Source of the DNA: Gammaproteobacteria bacterium
GTDB taxonomy: Bacteria; Pseudomonadota; Gammaproteobacteria; Enterobacterales; Aeromonadaceae
Direction of reading: 5' to 3'
Length of the DNA: 64,000 bases
Assembly (NCBI GenBank): GCA_018222825.1
Contig: JAAEZO010000001.1
Coordinates: 1-64,000, forward strand
How positions within the stretch are numbered: the stretch's first letter is position 1; every line of letters begins with the position of its first letter. Under the pieces are notes generated by a model, which was not told the DNA's origin, made no database searches, and was given only the letters and a program-made list of their open reading frames with translations. This document shows positions 33,721 to 60,694 of the stretch, piece by piece. A program made the translations under genes and the position numbers.

Positions 33721-34779
33721 GTGAGCGATCTGTTATCTCAGGATGAAATTGATGCCCTGCTACACGGGGTGGACGATGTAAAGGAAGAGACGGGCAATGA
33801 GGGTAACGGCGTTGCCATGTTCGACTTTTCTTCCCAGGATCGCATCGTTCGTGGACGCATGCCGACACTGGAAATGGTTAACGAGCGCTTTGCCCGGCAT
33901 ATGCGTATCAGCCTGTTCAACATGATGCGTCGCACCGCTGAAGTGTCGGTCAACGGTGTTCAAATGCTCAAGTTCGGCGAATACGTGCATTCGCTGTTTT
34001 TGCCTACCAGCCTCAACATGGTGCGTTTTCGTCCGCTCAAGGGCATAGGGCTGGTTACCATGGAAGCACGACTGGTGTTTATTCTGGTAGACAATTTCTT
34101 TGGTGGTGACGGTCGTCATGCCAAGATTGAAGGTCGTGAATTTACCCCGACCGAGCGCCGGGTAATACAACTGCTGCTGAAGCTGGTGTTTGAAGATTAC
34201 AAGGAGTCCTGGGCGCCGGTGATGGACGTGGAATTCGAGTATCTGGACTCGGAGGTCAACCCCACCATGGCCAATATCGTCAGCCCGACCGAGGTGGTGG
34301 TGGTCAGCTCCTTTCATATCGAACTGGATGGCGGAGGCGGGGATTTTCACGTCACCCTGCCTTACGGCATGCTGGAGCCGATTCGCGAGCTGCTGGATGC
34401 CGGTGTGCAAAGCGACAAGGGCGAAAATGATTTGCGTTGGGGCAAGGCGCTGCGCGATGAAATCCTCGATGTGGGGGTGGATATGTCGGTAAGGCTGCTG
34501 GAAAAAGAGCTGAGCCTGCGCGCCATCATGGAATTGCAGGCCGGTGATATTATTCCGGTGGACATGCCCGAGCATTTGCTGGTGTCGGTAGAAGAGTTAC
34601 CCAGTTTCCGTGCCCAGCTGGGGCGTGCCGGAGAAAAAATGGCCGTGCGAATCAGCGAAAAAATCAAGAAGCCGGAAACGGTCAAGACCGAACTGAGTCA
34701 CGTCACCCGCCGTGGCGTCCGTATCGACGGCGAGGCCGAGCTGGAAGAACTGGAAAGAACCATTGAGGATGCATCATGA
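33721..34779 (+). CDS. fliM: FliM, motor switch protein
   Basis: A 352-residue C-ring protein starting with GTG. The N-terminal CheY-P-binding motif LLSQDEIDALLHGV (residues 4-17) is complete. It is followed by the CheC-like middle domain (LVFILVDNFFGGDGRHAKIE) and the C-terminal SpoA domain that pairs with FliN. Binding of phosphorylated CheY (44097-44480) changes the direction of rotation. It overlaps fliN by four bases (ATGA). Confidence 0.96.
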   Translation: MSDLLSQDEIDALLHGVDDVKEETGNEGNGVAMFDFSSQDRIVRGRMPTLEMVNERFARHMRISLFNMMRRTAEVSVNGVQMLKFGEYVHSLFLPTSLNMVRFRPLKGIGLVTMEARLVFILVDNFFGGDGRHAKIEGREFTPTERRVIQLLLKLVFEDYKESWAPVMDVEFEYLDSEVNPTMANIVSPTEVVVVSSFHIELDGGGGDFHVTLPYGMLEPIRELLDAGVQSDKGENDLRWGKALRDEILDVGVDMSVRLLEKELSLRAIMELQAGDIIPVDMPEHLLVSVEELPSFRAQLGRAGEKMAVRISEKIKKPETVKTELSHVTRRGVRIDGEAELEELERTIEDAS

Positions 34780-44096: not shown

Positions 44097-44480
44097 TTGG
44101 ACAAGAACATGAAAATCCTCATCGTGGATGATTTTTCCACCATGCGCAGAATTATTAAAAACCTGCTTCGGGATCTCGGATTTAATAATACCCACGAAGC
44201 TGACGACGGCAATACCGCCTTACCCATGCTCAAGGGAGGAGACTTCGAGTTTGTAGTCACCGACTGGAACATGCCCGGTATGCAGGGAATCGATTTGTTA
44301 CGCGCCATTCGTGCCGACGACAAACTCAAGCACCTGCCGGTATTGATGGTCACGGCGGAAGCCAAGCGCGAGCAGATTATCACCGCCGCCCAGGCAGGCG
44401 TGAATGGCTACGTGGTCAAACCTTTTACCGCCGGCACCCTCAAGGAAAAACTCGAGAAGGTTTTCGAGCGAATCGGATAA
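44097..44480 (+). CDS. cheY: CheY, chemotaxis response regulator
   Basis: A 127-residue single-domain receiver: acidic pair D11/D12, phospho-acceptor D56 in [12 protein letters not shown] and the conserved Lys in VVKPF. Phospho-CheY binds the FliM N-terminus to switch rotation. The start is probably TTG at 44097, exactly six bases after a perfect AGGAGG. The next in-frame ATG (44109) is 18 bases from that site and gives the shorter [10 protein letters not shown] start. Vibrio CheY has a similar extension before MKILIVDDF. It heads the che-mot-par operon. Confidence 0.95.
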
Positions 44481-44492
44481 AAAGGCATCGCA

Positions 44493-45242
44493 ATGGCATT
44501 ACAGAAAGGAACGATCAATCTGGAACAGGCTCGCATACTGGTGGCCATGCTGGAGCGTGGTGATCAGGACGGCGCCGACCGTTATCTTACCGACGTATGC
44601 ATGCCGCAGGCGAAAGATCTGGTCGAGCAGGTCGGGCAGCTGACCCGCCAGCTGCATGATTCGCTGCAGGAGTTTCGCAACGACCCCCGTTTGCCGGAGC
44701 TGGCCGAGAATGAAATTCCCGATGCCAAAGAGCGCCTGAGTTACGTCATCGACATGACCGACAAGGCGGCCAACCGCACCATGGATGCGGTGGAAGCCAG
44801 CCTGCCCATTGCCGACCGACTCAGCGATCGTATCCAGCAGATGCTGCCGGGTTGGCGTGAGTTGATGCAACGCCAACTGGAATTGAATAAATTCAAGGAT
44901 CTGTGTTATCAGCTCGACGATTTTCTGTTGAGCTCCGAGCAGGATTCCAATCAGTTAAGGCAGTTGCTGACCGAAATACTGATGGCGCAGGATTATCAGG
45001 ATTTAACCGGGCAGATGATTCGCCGGGTGATCAACCTGGTACAGGAAGTGGAAGCCAAACTGGTGGCTATTCTGTCGGTCTTTGGTCGTTTACCGGGTAT
45101 GGAAGATGCCAAGCCCAAGCCGGCAAGCGTGCCGGTCTCGGGCATTGAAGCCGAAGGCCCGATCATCAATAAAGAACATCGTAATGATGTGGTCTCGGAT
45201 CAGGATGGCGTCGACGATTTGCTGTCCAGTCTGGGATTCTAA
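44493..45242 (+). CDS. cheZ: CheZ, CheY-P phosphatase
   Basis: A 249-residue helical protein. The catalytic helix YQDLTGQMIRRVINLV contains the Asp and Gln that line up with E. coli CheZ D143 and Q147. The acidic tail DQDGVDDLLSSLGF is the CheY-binding peptide. It forms a long four-helix dimer and removes the phosphate from CheY. It lies 12 bases after cheY and nine bases before cheA. Confidence 0.95.
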   Translation: MALQKGTINLEQARILVAMLERGDQDGADRYLTDVCMPQAKDLVEQVGQLTRQLHDSLQEFRNDPRLPELAENEIPDAKERLSYVIDMTDKAANRTMDAVEASLPIADRLSDRIQQMLPGWRELMQRQLELNKFKDLCYQLDDFLLSSEQDSNQLRQLLTEILMAQDYQDLTGQMIRRVINLVQEVEAKLVAILSVFGRLPGMEDAKPKPASVPVSGIEAEGPIINKEHRNDVVSDQDGVDDLLSSLGF

Positions 45243-45251
45243 GGAGAGAGC

Positions 45252-47336
45252 ATGGGCTTTGAGGTAGATGAGGATATTCTGCAGGACTTTCTGGTCGAAG
45301 CATCGGAAATCCTGGAGCAATTGTCAGAGCAGTTGGTGACACTGGAGCGCCAACCCGATGATAAAGACTTGCTGAATGCGATTTTTCGCGGTTTTCATAC
45401 CGTCAAGGGTGGTGCCGGTTTTCTATCGTTGACTGCACTGGTAGACACCTGCCACAAAGCCGAAAACGTGTTCGATATTTTGCGTACCGGTCAGCGCAAA
45501 GTCACCTCCGAACTGATGGATGTGATACTGCGGGCGCTGGATACGGTAAATAACATGTTTGCCGAAATCCAGAACCGGGAGGATCCGACCCCGGCCGAGC
45601 CGCAATTGCTTGAGGAACTCAAGCGCTATTGCCGGCCTGCCAGTGAAGACGAGGCGGTGGCCGCTCCGGTTGCACCGGTGGCGGACACCACCATTTCGGA
45701 CCTCGGTGAAACCGAGTATCAGCAGATGCTGGATGAGCTGGCGCCCGATGCGCCGGTCGACCGCATGCCTGAATCGGCGTCAGCGGGTACTGCCGAACAG
45801 ACGGCCAGTGACGGCGACGACATCAGCGACGATGAATTCGAAGCGTTGCTGGATCAGTTGCATGGCGCCGGCAAGCATAGCGGCATTCCCGCATCCGCGG
45901 CCTCTGAGCCATCGGCCAGCCTGAGCACGGATGACAGCGGTGACGAGATAGGCGACCTCGAATTCGAGGCGCTGCTGGATCAGCTGCACGGATCGGGCAA
46001 GGGCCCGTCGATTACGGCTGACGCTACCGTGAGTGCCCCGACGCAGGCTTCACCGGCTCAGGCTGCTCCGGTTCGGCAAACACCGGCTGCCGTGACCGCA
46101 GCGGCACCCGCGACACCGACCGCCGACAAGGCGGCTGCCAAGGCGCCGGCCCATCATAATGCGCCACCGGATACCACGGTGCGGGTTGATACCAAGATTC
46201 TCGATAAGATCATGAACATGGTGGGCGAGCTGGTCTTGGTGCGTAACCGCCTGATCAGCCTCGATGCCAATCACGACAATGAAGACATTTCCAAGACGGT
46301 CGCCAATCTGGATGCGGTGACCGGTGATCTGCAAGGCGCGGTGATGAAAACCCGAATGCAGCCGATCAAGAAAGTCTTCGGCCGCTTCCCGCGGGTGGTG
46401 CGTGACATGGCGCGCAACATGAACAAGGAAATCAACCTGGAAATGGTCGGTGAAGAAACCGATCTCGATAAAAACCTGGTTGAGGCGCTGGCCGATCCCC
46501 TTGTTCACTTGGTGCGCAACTCCTGTGACCACGGCATAGAAATGCCGGCAGAGCGGGAAGCAGCCGGTAAACCGAGAGCCGGTGTTATTCGGCTGACGGC
46601 CTCGCAGGAAGGGGATCATATTCTGCTCGGCATCGAAGATGACGGTGCCGGCATGGATCCGGAAAAGCTCAAGAGTATCGCCATCAAGCGGGGTATTCTC
46701 GATGCGGATGGCGCCGCCCGCATGACCGACAACGAAGCCTATAACCTGATCTTTGCCCCCGGTTTTTCCACCAAACAGGAAATTACCGATGTGTCCGGTC
46801 GTGGCGTGGGCATGGATGTGGTCAAGACCGGTATCAACTCGGTCAATGGCTCCATCGTGATCGACTCCGAAAAAGGCAAGGGCACCCGGCTGCAGATCAA
46901 GGTGCCGCTGACGCTGGCGATACTGCCGACCCTGATGGTACTGGTGGGCAAGCAGACCTTTGCGTTGCCGCTGACCAACGTCAACGAAATTTTCCACCTC
47001 GATCTGACCCGCACCAGCACGGTGGATGGCCAGCTGACCATAGTGGTGCGCAATCACGCTATTCCGCTGTTCTACCTGCAGGACTGGTTGCTCAAAGGCG
47101 AACGCCAGGCCCGTAAAGCGCAGGGGCACGTGGTAATAGTGGTGGTGGGTAACCAGCAGGTCGGCTTTGTGGTCGATGGCCTTATCGGCCAGGAAGAAGT
47201 GGTGATCAAGCCGCTCGATCAGCTGTTGCACGGCACGCCCGGCATGGCCGGCGCCACCATTACCAGTGATGGCGGCATTGCATTGATCCTGGATCTGGCT
47301 GGTTTGATCAAGGCCTATGCCCGGCGTTACGCCTAA
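45252..47336 (+). CDS. cheA: CheA, chemotaxis histidine kinase
   Basis: A 694-residue kinase: HPt domain with phosphorylated His49 (FRGFHTVKGGAGFLSL), a long acidic/Pro-Ala linker (130-300), dimerisation domain (TKILDKIMNMVGELVLVRNR), ATPase (HLVRNSCDHGIEMPAER; GRGVGMDVVKTGINSVNG) and a CheW-like regulatory domain. No well-formed CheY-binding P2 domain is evident. Instead the linker has three similar motifs: EYQQMLDEL (155-163), EFEALLDQLHG (195-205) and EFEALLDQLHG (237-247). In Vibrio this linker area binds ParP/ParC, whose genes lie downstream. Confidence 0.96.
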   Translation: MGFEVDEDILQDFLVEASEILEQLSEQLVTLERQPDDKDLLNAIFRGFHTVKGGAGFLSLTALVDTCHKAENVFDILRTGQRKVTSELMDVILRALDTVNNMFAEIQNREDPTPAEPQLLEELKRYCRPASEDEAVAAPVAPVADTTISDLGETEYQQMLDELAPDAPVDRMPESASAGTAEQTASDGDDISDDEFEALLDQLHGAGKHSGIPASAASEPSASLSTDDSGDEIGDLEFEALLDQLHGSGKGPSITADATVSAPTQASPAQAAPVRQTPAAVTAAAPATPTADKAAAKAPAHHNAPPDTTVRVDTKILDKIMNMVGELVLVRNRLISLDANHDNEDISKTVANLDAVTGDLQGAVMKTRMQPIKKVFGRFPRVVRDMARNMNKEINLEMVGEETDLDKNLVEALADPLVHLVRNSCDHGIEMPAEREAAGKPRAGVIRLTASQEGDHILLGIEDDGAGMDPEKLKSIAIKRGILDADGAARMTDNEAYNLIFAPGFSTKQEITDVSGRGVGMDVVKTGINSVNGSIVIDSEKGKGTRLQIKVPLTLAILPTLMVLVGKQTFALPLTNVNEIFHLDLTRTSTVDGQLTIVVRNHAIPLFYLQDWLLKGERQARKAQGHVVIVVVGNQQVGFVVDGLIGQEEVVIKPLDQLLHGTPGMAGATITSDGGIALILDLAGLIKAYARRYA

Positions 47337-49252: not shown

Positions 49253-50106
49253 GGCGCCGTTCTCTGGTATCGGGACCCGACAGCGCCGGACTGGATCGCT
49301 GGCTGGTGTCCTATGCGGATTACATGACGCTGGTGTTTGCGTTGTTTGTGGTGCTGTATGCCATTCATGCCAGCAAGACCGAGCTGCAGCAACCCATGCT
49401 GGATGGCATGCAGCAGGCGCTGGTGCGCCTGAACGGCGAGGCTCTACCCGCTCAGGCGGCGGTCACTCATATAGCGGTTGCTGCCGAGTCTGCCGCCGTC
49501 GGAACCGGCGTCCAGCCTCCGTCGCAGGCGACCAGCCTGGCCCGGCTGCAAGCCGAACTGGAGCTGCAGCTGGCGCCGTTGCTGGAACAACAGCTGGTCG
49601 AACTGGAAAACGACGGCGACTGGCTGACCCTGAGTTTTGACGGCAAGCTGCTGTTCGCCAGCGGCAGTGCCTTGCTGGGAGGCAATGGCGAGCCGGTACT
49701 GAGCACCCTGATCCCGGTGCTGGCCCCGGTTGATCATTTTATTCGGGTTCGTGGCTATGCCGACAACCTGCCGGTCAGCAACGAATTATATGCCTCCAAC
49801 TGGCAGCTCTCTGCCGAACGGGCGCGGGTGGTACTGGAATGGTTGCTGCATCGTGGCATCGAGGCCCCACGACTGGCACTGGAAGCATTCGGCGAATTCC
49901 ATCCTCGGGAGCAGCAACTGGGCGAGCGGGGGCGGGCACCTAACCGGCGGGTCGAAATTGCCATTTCGGCACAGCGCTGGCAACCCAGACCGGCCTTGCC
50001 GTCACGGCCGCTGAACACGGAGCAGAGCCAGGCGTTGCGGGTCTATGAGCTGCCCGGTGGTGGCATACGAATCGGCACATCAACACAAGACGGGGCGAAC
50101 CAGTGA
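49249..50106 (+). CDS. motD: MotD, MotB-type stator subunit with OmpA domain
   Basis: A 285-residue protein: a single membrane helix (YADYMTLVFALFVVLYAIHA, about 22-41) with D24 in the position of the ion-binding Asp of MotB, a plug/linker region (60-115) and a C-terminal OmpA-like peptidoglycan-binding domain (about 130-245; IRVRGYADNLPVSNELYASN, then LSAERARVVLEWLLHRG). It anchors the stator to the cell wall. A basic, Arg-rich N-terminus faces the cytoplasm. It overlaps both motC and the parC gene. Confidence 0.92.
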   Translation: MRRRSLVSGPDSAGLDRWLVSYADYMTLVFALFVVLYAIHASKTELQQPMLDGMQQALVRLNGEALPAQAAVTHIAVAAESAAVGTGVQPPSQATSLARLQAELELQLAPLLEQQLVELENDGDWLTLSFDGKLLFASGSALLGGNGEPVLSTLIPVLAPVDHFIRVRGYADNLPVSNELYASNWQLSAERARVVLEWLLHRGIEAPRLALEAFGEFHPREQQLGERGRAPNRRVEIAISAQRWQPRPALPSRPLNTEQSQALRVYELPGGGIRIGTSTQDGANQ

Positions 50107-50888
50107 TTGTCTGGACAGTAGCAAATCAGAAAGGCGGGGTCGGTAAAACCACCACAGTCGTGGCGCTCGCCGGTTTGCTGGCCCAGCGCAACAAGCGGGT
50201 GCTGCTGATCGACACCGATCCTCATGGCTCCCTGACCTCCTATTTCAATTATGATATGGACACCTTGCCGCACACCTTGTTCGATCTGTTTCAGGCCGAA
50301 CGACCGACCCGAGCACTGTTCGAGCAGGTGGCACTGAAAACCGGCTTCGATGGCCTGACGCTGCTGCCGGCGTCAATCTCGCTGGCGACGCTGGAACGTA
50401 CCTCCAGCAGTCGCGAAGGCATGGGGCTGGTGCTGAAGCGTCTGCTGGCCGAGTTGCAGCATGACTTTGACGTGGTGATTATCGACTGCCCACCGGTGCT
50501 GGGGGTGATGATGGTCAATGCGCTGGCCGCCTGTGATCGCATTCTGGTCCCGGTGCAGACCGAGTTTCTGGCCATCAAGGGGCTGGAGCGGATGGTCAGC
50601 ACCTTTAAACTGATGCACAGGGCCAGAAAAGACGGCTTCAACTATACGGTGGTGCCCACCATGTACGATCAGCGCACCCGGGCCTCGGTACAGAGCCTGG
50701 ACAGCCTGAAACAACAGTACGGCGAGCGGCTCTGGCCGGCGGTGATTCCGGTAGACACCAAGTTTCGCGATGCCAGCCTGCGGCACGAACCGCCCTCTTA
50801 TTTCGCCAAGGGCAGCCGGGGCGTCTTTGCCTACCAGACGCTGTTGCGTTACCTGTGGCAGCTTGATGGCGTGGAGACGGCATTATGA
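50103..50888 (+). CDS. parC: ParC, ParA-like ATPase positioning chemotaxis arrays
   Basis: A 261-residue ParA/MinD-family ATPase (not topoisomerase ParC). It starts with GTG, overlapping the motD stop, and has the Walker A KGGVGKTTT (10-18), LLIDTDPHGSLTSYF and VVIIDCPPVLGVMMVNAL. In Vibrio the ParC protein places chemotaxis clusters at the cell pole with ParP and HubP. It sits between motD and parP with four-base overlaps on both sides. The Pseudomonas counterpart has been annotated simply as a ParA-family or Soj-like protein. Confidence 0.9.
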   Translation: MIVWTVANQKGGVGKTTTVVALAGLLAQRNKRVLLIDTDPHGSLTSYFNYDMDTLPHTLFDLFQAERPTRALFEQVALKTGFDGLTLLPASISLATLERTSSSREGMGLVLKRLLAELQHDFDVVIIDCPPVLGVMMVNALAACDRILVPVQTEFLAIKGLERMVSTFKLMHRARKDGFNYTVVPTMYDQRTRASVQSLDSLKQQYGERLWPAVIPVDTKFRDASLRHEPPSYFAKGSRGVFAYQTLLRYLWQLDGVETAL

Positions 50889-51733
50889 ATCAACGACACA
50901 CAGACGCGCTCGACGATTATTTCGGTGCCCTGCTGGAAGAACCTTCTTCGGCATCCTTGCCAACGCCGGTTGCCCCGACGGCGATCTTTGTCGATCCGGC
51001 CGAAGAGGAGCGACGCCAGGGGCTGGAAACCTTGCTGGCTCGGGTTGCCGAGCTGAAGGAAGAAGAAAGTCTGCCGCCGGTCGAACTTATGGCGCCCGAA
51101 CCAGCGCTGAAAGTGACACCCAAGCCGGCACCGGCGATTGAAACCAGAATAGAGCCGACCCCGGTGGCCATTCCCGAACCGGTCATTCCTGAACCGAGCA
51201 TGGTTGAACCGACTCCGGTGGCAACCGTTGAACCCGAGCCGACGCCCGTGGCTGCCGAGACACCGGCCGCCGTTGAATGGCGCAACATGGACACCGAAAA
51301 CAGCTTTCAGGCGTTGTTTTTCGAGGTGGCGGGTATGACCTTTGCGGTACCGCTGACTCACCTGGGGGGCATTTATCAGATGACCAAACTGACCAGTCTG
51401 TTCGGCAAGCCAGACTGGTTTTCCGGTGTGCTGACAGAGCGTGAACGCCAGCTGTATGTGGTGGATACCGCGCGCTGGGCCATGCCCGGCCACCAGGCAC
51501 AAGAACAATACCAGTACCTGGTAACCCTGGGTGAAAGCAACTGGGGGCTGGGTTGCCATCAGTTGAAAGGCACGGCCCTGCTGACGCGGGATCAGGTGAA
51601 ATGGCGTGCCACGCCGGGCGCGCGGCCCTGGCTGGCGGGCATGGTAAAAGAAAAAATGTGCGCTCTGCTCCATGTGGATGCCTTGATTGGGCTGCTGGAG
51701 CAGGGTAAGAATATCGACGGACAACAAGTCTGA
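50885..51733 (+). CDS. parP: ParP, CheW-like array-anchoring protein
   Basis: A 282-residue protein: an N-terminal segment (RHTDALDDYFGALLEEPSS) with an acidic helical stretch, a Pro/Glu/Thr-rich linker (about 70-130, repeated EPTPVA and PEP units) and a C-terminal CheW-like domain (about 135-275; FQALFFEVAGMTFAVPLTHL, GKPDWFSGVLTERERQLYVV). In Vibrio ParP couples ParC to CheA and prevents array loss. It overlaps parC by four bases and precedes the true cheW. The call combines the domain layout and context. Confidence 0.88.
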   Translation: MNQRHTDALDDYFGALLEEPSSASLPTPVAPTAIFVDPAEEERRQGLETLLARVAELKEEESLPPVELMAPEPALKVTPKPAPAIETRIEPTPVAIPEPVIPEPSMVEPTPVATVEPEPTPVAAETPAAVEWRNMDTENSFQALFFEVAGMTFAVPLTHLGGIYQMTKLTSLFGKPDWFSGVLTERERQLYVVDTARWAMPGHQAQEQYQYLVTLGESNWGLGCHQLKGTALLTRDQVKWRATPGARPWLAGMVKEKMCALLHVDALIGLLEQGKNIDGQQV

Positions 51734-51752: not shown

Positions 51753-52241
51753 ATGAACAGTCATCGCAATGTAGTTGAAAATCTGGCCGAAGGTGAGGTG
51801 TTGCAGTGGGTCACTTTCCGCCTTGATAACGAGACCTACGGCATCAATGTCATGCAGGTGCAGGAAGTGCTGCGCTATAGCGACATTGCGCCGGTACCGG
51901 GTGCGCCGAATTATGTACTGGGCATCGTGAACCTGCGCGGTAATGTGGTGACGGTACTCGATACCCGCCTGCGATTTGGTCTGCCCTCGGCGGAGCTTAC
52001 CGACAACAGCCGTATCGTGATCATCGAGGCGGAAAAGCAGGTTATCGGCATTCTGGTCGACAGCGTGGCCGAGGTGGTGTATCTCAAGTCGTCCGAGATC
52101 GAAACCGCCCCCAATGTCGGCACCAGCGAAAGCGCCAAGTTTATTCAGGGTGTGTGCAACCGGGAGGAAGAGCTGTTGATTCTGGTGGATCTGGACAAGC
52201 TGCTGTCCGAAGACGAATGGGACGAGTTGGGCCAGCTGTAA
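51753..52241 (+). CDS. cheW: CheW, receptor-kinase coupling protein
   Basis: A 162-residue CheW with the family motifs LQWVTFRLDNETYGINVMQV, VPGAPNYVLGIVNLRGNVVT and VLDTRLRFGL. It joins chemoreceptors to CheA in the signalling array. Its stop overlaps the ATG of the DUF2802 gene by one base. It is one of three CheW-fold proteins here, along with CheV and ParP. Confidence 0.96.
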   Translation: MNSHRNVVENLAEGEVLQWVTFRLDNETYGINVMQVQEVLRYSDIAPVPGAPNYVLGIVNLRGNVVTVLDTRLRFGLPSAELTDNSRIVIIEAEKQVIGILVDSVAEVVYLKSSEIETAPNVGTSESAKFIQGVCNREEELLILVDLDKLLSEDEWDELGQL

Positions 52242-59834: not shown

Positions 59835-59905
59835 ATGGGATAAAAGCGGCCGAGCCGGCCGTTACTGAGCGATAATAAAATAACAAAAACGATAAGGCCT
59901 AGACT

Positions 59906-60694
59906 ATGTGGCGAATATTGACTGTGACGGCGAGCATGACCCTGGCAGGTTGTGCCGCCCACGAGGGCGTGGATGTGCCACGCACCCATGATCCTTTTTC
60001 ACCGGCTATTCCGGCGGATTATGCCAAGGCAACGGCCAATGATGCCCGTGACCCTTTCGAGCCGGTCAACCGGGGCGCCTGGGTCATCAACTACGATGTG
60101 CTGGATCCTTACGTGGTCCGTCCGGCGGCCCATGCCTATGCGGATTATGTCGCCAAACCGGTCAGAGACGGGCTGCAGAACGTGGTGCTCAACCTGGAAG
60201 AACCGGCCAGCTTCGTCAACCATCTGGTGACCGGCGACTTTCCCGGCGCCGGTACCAACCTGGTTCGTTTCGGGGTGAACAGTACCGTGGGGGTGCTGGG
60301 TTACTTCGATGTGGCGGAAAAAATGACGCTGTCGCGTCGTTCCAAGGATTTCAGTCAGGTACTGAGCCAGATGGGCGTGGGCGATGGTCCTTTTCTGATG
60401 TTACCGGTACTGGGGCCGACCACGCTGCGTCAGCTTTCCGGCGACATGGTCGACAGCCTTTATTTTCCTTACGACGTGATGAGCTTTGCACTGCGTACCG
60501 GTAAATGGGCGCTTGACGGCCTCTATCAGCGCAGCGAGCTGATCGAGCGTGAACCCATTATCGACAATTCCCTCGATCCTTATGGCCTGACCAAGGATCT
60601 CTATCTGCAGTATCAGGACACCAAGGCAGGCAAGGAATTCGAGCCCGCTTCGGACGAAGAACTGGAAGCCTTCATGGAAGAAATAGACGGCTGA
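59906..60694 (+). CDS. mlaA: MlaA (VacJ), phospholipid transport lipoprotein
   Basis: A 262-residue outer-membrane lipoprotein: lipobox LAGC (Cys16) and the MlaA core (DARDPFEPVNRGAWVINYDV, then NLVRFGVNSTVGVLGYFDVA). It removes misplaced phospholipids from the outer leaflet with the Mla system. The acidic C-terminal tail is typical. It is transcribed alone, with a 71-base AT-rich gap from ccmI. A 10-bp hairpin lies after it, before the convergent DUF502 gene. Confidence 0.95.
   Translation: MWRILTVTASMTLAGCAAHEGVDVPRTHDPFSPAIPADYAKATANDARDPFEPVNRGAWVINYDVLDPYVVRPAAHAYADYVAKPVRDGLQNVVLNLEEPASFVNHLVTGDFPGAGTNLVRFGVNSTVGVLGYFDVAEKMTLSRRSKDFSQVLSQMGVGDGPFLMLPVLGPTTLRQLSGDMVDSLYFPYDVMSFALRTGKWALDGLYQRSELIEREPIIDNSLDPYGLTKDLYLQYQDTKAGKEFEPASDEELEAFMEEIDG

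Follow-up and report, generated by a model that had tools for sequence, protein, structure and literature searches.

Downstream of flhA-flhF-fleN-fliA, the window, i.e. the whole stretch of 64,000 nucleotides that was analysed, carries the genes cheY-cheZ-cheA-cheB-motC-motD-parC-parP-cheW (Table 1). This gene order and the lack of a P2 domain in the encoded CheA place the protein in a class, which we take to be the one named F6. The first-pass annotation had located parC and parP downstream of cheA, and this arrangement was confirmed: a ParA-family ATPase and a ParP protein with a CheW domain are encoded there. The tryptophan of the WLAG sequence in this ParP seems to be the counterpart of W305 of V. 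cholerae.

Table 1. Genes and motif copies discussed in the text; positions are those of the window.
Feature	Position	Strand	Residues	Characteristics
cheA	45252..47336	+	694 aa	P1 (Hpt), motif-bearing linker (residues ~115-303), P3, P4, P5
copy 1, EYQQMLDEL	45714..45740	+	155-163	diverged
copy 2, DDISDDEFEALLDQLHG	45816..45866	+	189-205	
copy 3, DEIGDLEFEALLDQLHG	45942..45992	+	231-247	
fliM	33721..34779	+		N-terminus MSDLLSQDEIDALLHG; scores highest with the CheA-motif matrix among the 481 window ORFs, CheA aside
cheY	44109..44480	+	123 aa	proposed ligand; nearest solved structures are V. cholerae CheY3
cheZ	44493..45242	+		C-terminal tail SDQDGVDDLLSSLGF, CheY-binding peptide by homology
parC-type ParA ATPase	50103..50888	+		
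parP-type gene	50885..51733	+		N-terminal ALDDYFGALLEE segment, Pro-rich linker, CheW-like AIF domain, conserved WLAG

Pfam models for P1 (Hpt), P3 (dimerisation), P4 (ATPase) and P5 (CheW) match the window CheA, and no Pfam match was obtained for P2. Ahead of P3, which starts at residue 308, the linker contains three copies of a short motif between residues 155 and 247. The copies are spaced 40 and 42 residues apart, and the sequence EFEALLDQLHG is found at residues 195-205 (45834-45866) and 237-247 (45960-45992). The initial description, with EYQQMLDEL at 155 and EFEALLDQLHG twice in identical form at 195 and 237, thus held in positions, spacing and identity. That the linker is disordered outside the motif is supported by the low pLDDT of this region when related CheAs are modelled with AlphaFold2. 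A repeated 6-mer, even a single one, arises in just 0.8% of composition-preserving shuffles of the window linker. Between the two stretches encoding EFEALLDQLHG, five of 33 nucleotides differ, each of them synonymously and without an amino-acid change, which argues for maintained selection and not for a fresh duplication. Scored with a matrix derived from relatives, copy 1 reaches 10.4 bits and the other two copies 54.9 and 45.3 bits. Copy 1 is worn, a distinctive trait of this CheA; it is diverged in several relatives as well, and the Oceanimonas CheA (L139) has the counterpart EYQQMLGEL.

To follow the distribution of the motif, 370 genomes of the class were searched with the window CheA, and 60 stretches around CheA and 80 named loci were retrieved. 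Nearly every close relative carries the motif, including Vibrio, Photobacterium, Shewanella, Alteromonas, Pseudomonas, Marinobacter and Oceanimonas. From 250 distinct copies, the consensus [SD]-[DE]-I-[TS]-[DE]-D-E-F-E-[AS]-L-L-D-[QE]-L-H-G-K-G was derived, or D-x-I-[TS]-[DE]-[DE]-E-F-E-x-L-L-D-x-L-H-G in its short form. The frequencies of the conserved residues, in the order I(0.89)-[TS]-[DE]-[DE]-E(0.97)-F(0.96)-[ED]-A/S-L(0.90)-L(0.99)-D(0.96)-x-L(0.88)-H-G, have to be read with the harvesting pattern in mind, which itself required acidic residues, hydrophobic residues and L/M at some of the conserved places. Among the 66 loci that encode both ParC and ParP, one has a single copy, 11 have two, 39 have three and 15 have four, and neighbouring copies lie a median of 42 residues apart; three copies about 40 residues apart are therefore the usual state in these loci. 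Other linkers near or outside this group differ: the Campylobacterota-type CheAs (L133, L144, L149, L150) have another motif, D-Y-x-x-[ML]-S-x-[EA]-E-V-E-A-E-I-[EQ]-R-L-[LI], in one or two copies by pattern, and two betaproteobacterial CheAs close to the class (L131, L138) have a D-W-[DE]-A-L segment in the linker where the motif of this group would be.

The motif occupies the place of the P2 domain. Neither PF07194 (P2) nor PF09078 (CheY-binding) matched anywhere in the 59 genomes whose CheA of the class was retrieved; the controls from B. subtilis, T. maritima and E. coli did match. Among 33 CheAs, P2 was detected in three, which is the number of clostridial controls included. Pfam is known to detect P2 with low sensitivity, more than half of all CheAs are reported to lack P2 and to have an unstructured region in its place, and loss of P2 slows phosphotransfer in E. 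coli (PMC10542144). Seven clusters (L031, L039, L040, L049, L050, L127, L135) encode a second CheA with a conserved P2-like region of about 85 residues; compared over its length with the clostridial P2 profile, it gave E = 0.003 and an HHalign probability of 10%, and this identity is therefore suggestive only, as it rests on a single comparison with so low a probability. The motif is absent from these second CheAs (best score 3.8 bits), and the motif linkers align at the profile level neither with clostridial P2 (E = 0.92) nor with the P2-like region (E = 0.4). Motif and P2 thus do not co-occur in the sampled CheAs. Both share the position between P1 and P3 and the proposed job; however, P2 folds into a domain of some 80-100 residues, whereas the motif forms putative short helices in a disordered linker and has no profile match to it. 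P2-less CheAs without any such motif also exist.

FliM and CheZ bind the same face of CheY, α4-β5-α5, with similar interaction modes (PMC3774744), and the CheA motif resembles the peptides of both proteins. It combines acidic residues, I/V/F, a further acidic residue, any residue and L-L in a short predicted helix, as is typical for FliM/CheZ-type peptides. The consensus aligns without gaps over 13 residues with the N-terminus of the window FliM (SDLLSQDEIDALL vs GDDISDDEFEALL; column-permutation p = 0.0007 in a profile-profile comparison), the two sharing the acidic cap, the hydrophobic residue, the acidic residue, x-LL and a predicted helix. The FliM peptide is single, N-terminal and has I/V, whereas the CheA motif is internal, repeated in the kinase linker and has F, followed by D-x-L-H-G. 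When the 481 ORFs of the window were scanned with the CheA-motif matrix, the FliM N-terminus ranked first after CheA, in a near tie with an unrelated lipoprotein ORF; a column-permuted matrix placed FliM first in 2.7% of 300 trials. This lipoprotein-like ORF (59903-60691) ends with EPASDEELEAFMEEIDG, probably a chance resemblance. When the window was scanned in the opposite direction, with a matrix made from FliM, CheA came second behind FliM itself, with its match at copy 2. For CheA, the FliM matrix gave an AUC of 0.987, a value not outside what matrices with permuted columns yield (mean 0.955, maximum 0.992), so acidic/leucine composition accounts for part of the likeness; being no better than the best permuted matrices, the AUC was set aside as support.

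The match to the CheZ C-terminal tail is weaker, and weak once composition is allowed for (column-permutation p = 0.048 for the two profiles). Both have an acidic stretch and hydrophobic-acidic-x-LL followed by x-x-L-G; the CheZ tail, however, is present in a single copy at the protein terminus. Among 103 CheZ tails, 74% score above the 99th percentile set by a background of 7,889 C-termini from other proteins, a figure obtained without a permutation control, and some tails, for example INQDDVDALLAELGI from Acidithiobacillus, are intermediate between CheZ tail and CheA motif. A search of PDB sequences with the motif peptide gave no matches.

The AlphaFold2 models were made from in-frame read-through chains, artificial CheY-CheA fusions that are possible where cheY and cheA share a frame; an alignment with separate CheY and CheA rows had placed P1 on CheY and was discarded. 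In the single-motif protein of locus L048 (G152, no ParP/ParC detected), the motif helix spans positions 380-391 with a block pLDDT of 84, and in the three-motif protein of L045 the helix blocks reach 88 (first motif), about 70-75 and 64-79; the flanking linker in both models is mostly at about 36-59. The motif is thus predicted to form a helix, as judged from pLDDT values. In a fold search with the model, the 50 matches listed were all CheY structures, with nothing on the motif.

Taken together, these observations suggest that the repeats, in tandem, dock CheY in the manner of the FliM and CheZ peptides and substitute for P2 in this class of CheA, a reading to which we assign a probability of roughly 0.6. 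Tandem helix-forming peptides in a disordered linker would stand in for P2 and bind CheY via its α4-β5-α5 face; the docked peptides would hold CheY near the phospho-histidine of P1, which would speed up phosphotransfer, and several copies may raise the local concentration of CheY. Binding of CheY, use of this face and the gain in local concentration are inferred. Where ParP exists, at least one copy may also serve ParP. If tandem motifs dock CheY, this would explain how a large class of CheAs, to which the Vibrio, Shewanella and Pseudomonas kinases belong, grips its response regulator, and the question would become approachable with short peptides. Neither an earlier account of such CheY-docking repeats nor the literal motif strings were found in the literature searched, outside of which lie most subscription papers, including the one that defines the localization segment discussed below.

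The first-pass annotation had regarded the repeats as docking sites for ParP, tied to the presence of ParC and ParP. This assignment leans on the localization and inheritance domain (LID) of Vibrio CheA, a segment that was reportedly defined in 2014 by Ringgaard et al. Alignments of ParP and ParC were built and then searched against whole genomes. Positive controls scored 181-241 bits for ParP in five genomes (169 and 215 bits in two genomes of another search) and 361-427 bits for ParC. In 15 motif-bearing genomes, ParP matches were absent or covered the CheW-like core with no more than about 35 bits, and ParC matches did not exceed 214 bits, which is the level of chromosomal ParA. All of these 15 genomes keep one to three copies of the motif. 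They comprise G023, G323, G020, G152, G261, G333, G172, G322, G008, G024 and G137, which are given as 95-100% complete, as well as Acidithiobacillus (L136), two Dyella (L127, L129) and Hydrocarboniphaga (L141), for which no completeness figure is available; as several are draft assemblies, absence of ParP and ParC here means that they were not detected. Doubtful cases were left out of the set, namely G134 (ParP-like match of 85.9 bits), G010/G147/G243 (ParC-like ATPase and/or ParP-like CheW protein), G348 (ParA-family gene with 148.6 bits on the contig of its CheA), and G052 and G189 (ParC present). In G052 (L042), cheW directly follows the ParC gene, and the genome search yielded no ParP. ParC and ParP are encoded near cheA in the Pseudomonas/Stutzerimonas loci L100-L107, L110, L134 and L155; P. 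aeruginosa is said to have no related genes (PMC12410967).

The comparison of linkers with and without parC/parP thus recovered the motif in both groups, which largely speaks against a dock dedicated to ParP. What remains of the original proposal are short motifs of a docking type that recur in a disordered linker in the place of P2, with ParC/ParP encoded downstream, and an association with copy number: at least three copies are found in 54 of 66 loci with ParP and in 5 of 15 without ParP/ParC (Fisher p = 0.0004, uncorrected for shared ancestry). The HG tail of the motif had been considered as a ParP-related feature; it was dropped because it occurs in most genomes without ParP.

Persistence of the motif without ParP, and yet more copies with it, would also fit a dual use of the repeats, with a CheY dock in all such CheAs and later recognition of at least one copy by ParP in lineages with ParC/ParP, so that anchoring and docking compete or are split among the copies. 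The published binding of ParP to the LID maps to the same broad linker, and the divergence of copy 1 in the window and its relatives is consistent with separate roles of the copies. However, by eye, no feature separates the copies of ParP-bearing genomes from the rest, and the lack of correction for relatedness weakens the copy-number test; as a separate account, we consider this dual use unlikely.

A role purely in docking ParP, by which several weak contacts per CheA would anchor the array at the pole, is improbable. The LID is described as a segment between P2 and P3 that is bound by ParP and occurs solely together with ParC/ParP (PMC5706961, PMC7534058). The motif region lies in the linker before P3 as well, and the loci of the window, Vibrio, Photobacterium and Shewanella all have ParC/ParP. 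The P1-P3 linkers of these loci hold only the motifs and low-complexity sequence, so the LID and one or more of the copies probably overlap. The broad linker region and the gene neighbourhood are shared with the LID, and the higher copy number with ParP also speaks for a ParP dock. The reported restriction to genomes with ParC/ParP, however, does not hold for the motif, which 15 genomes carry without either being detected; nor would a dock for ParP be expected to resemble FliM, or its HG tail to persist without ParP. The data favour a P2-replacing CheY dock with a possible additional use by ParP: the repeats probably do not serve only as the polar anchor of the kinase, but replace the absent CheY-docking domain of CheA. 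If so, the LID experiments with Vibrio CheA may have disturbed CheY docking alongside ParP binding.

It is far less probable that the repeats are structural or self-association elements, i.e. capped amphipathic helices of the SHOCT type that dock no ligand. PF09851 matches weakly in 17 of 33 CheAs (E <= 0.1; best E = 5.8e-8); the window CheA, however, stays short of E = 0.1, short helices with a cap are widespread as a shape, and both the missing P2 and the likeness to FliM would be left unexplained. Functionless chance resemblance from the acidic, alanine-rich composition of the linker is very unlikely: although the AUC control attributes part of the FliM likeness to composition, E, F, L and D are near-invariant among the 250 distinct copies from many families with fast-changing linkers, and copies 2 and 3 differ only synonymously within their 11 identical residues.

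The docking reading invites a broader and rather doubtful generalization, in which the P2-less CheAs of this class dock CheY by FliM/CheZ-like tandem motifs, so that motor, phosphatase and kinase would compete through one peptide code, and ParP, where present, would bind the same motif. Binding of the motif by ParP would then link the anchoring of the array at the pole with the loading of CheY.

Two further peptides were noticed in the window. The N-terminus of ParP is loosely motif-like, and a similar ORF of Salinivibrio (L097) scores 19.5 bits. The C-terminal tail of CheW, DKLLSEDEWDELGQL (52190-52238), is the third-best match to the FliM matrix in the window. Most CheWs of ParP clusters have such an LL[ST]DEEWxEL-like tail, and those of L034, L042, L048 and L082, which are without ParP, lack it; the tail is possibly a further docking peptide, perhaps linked to ParP.
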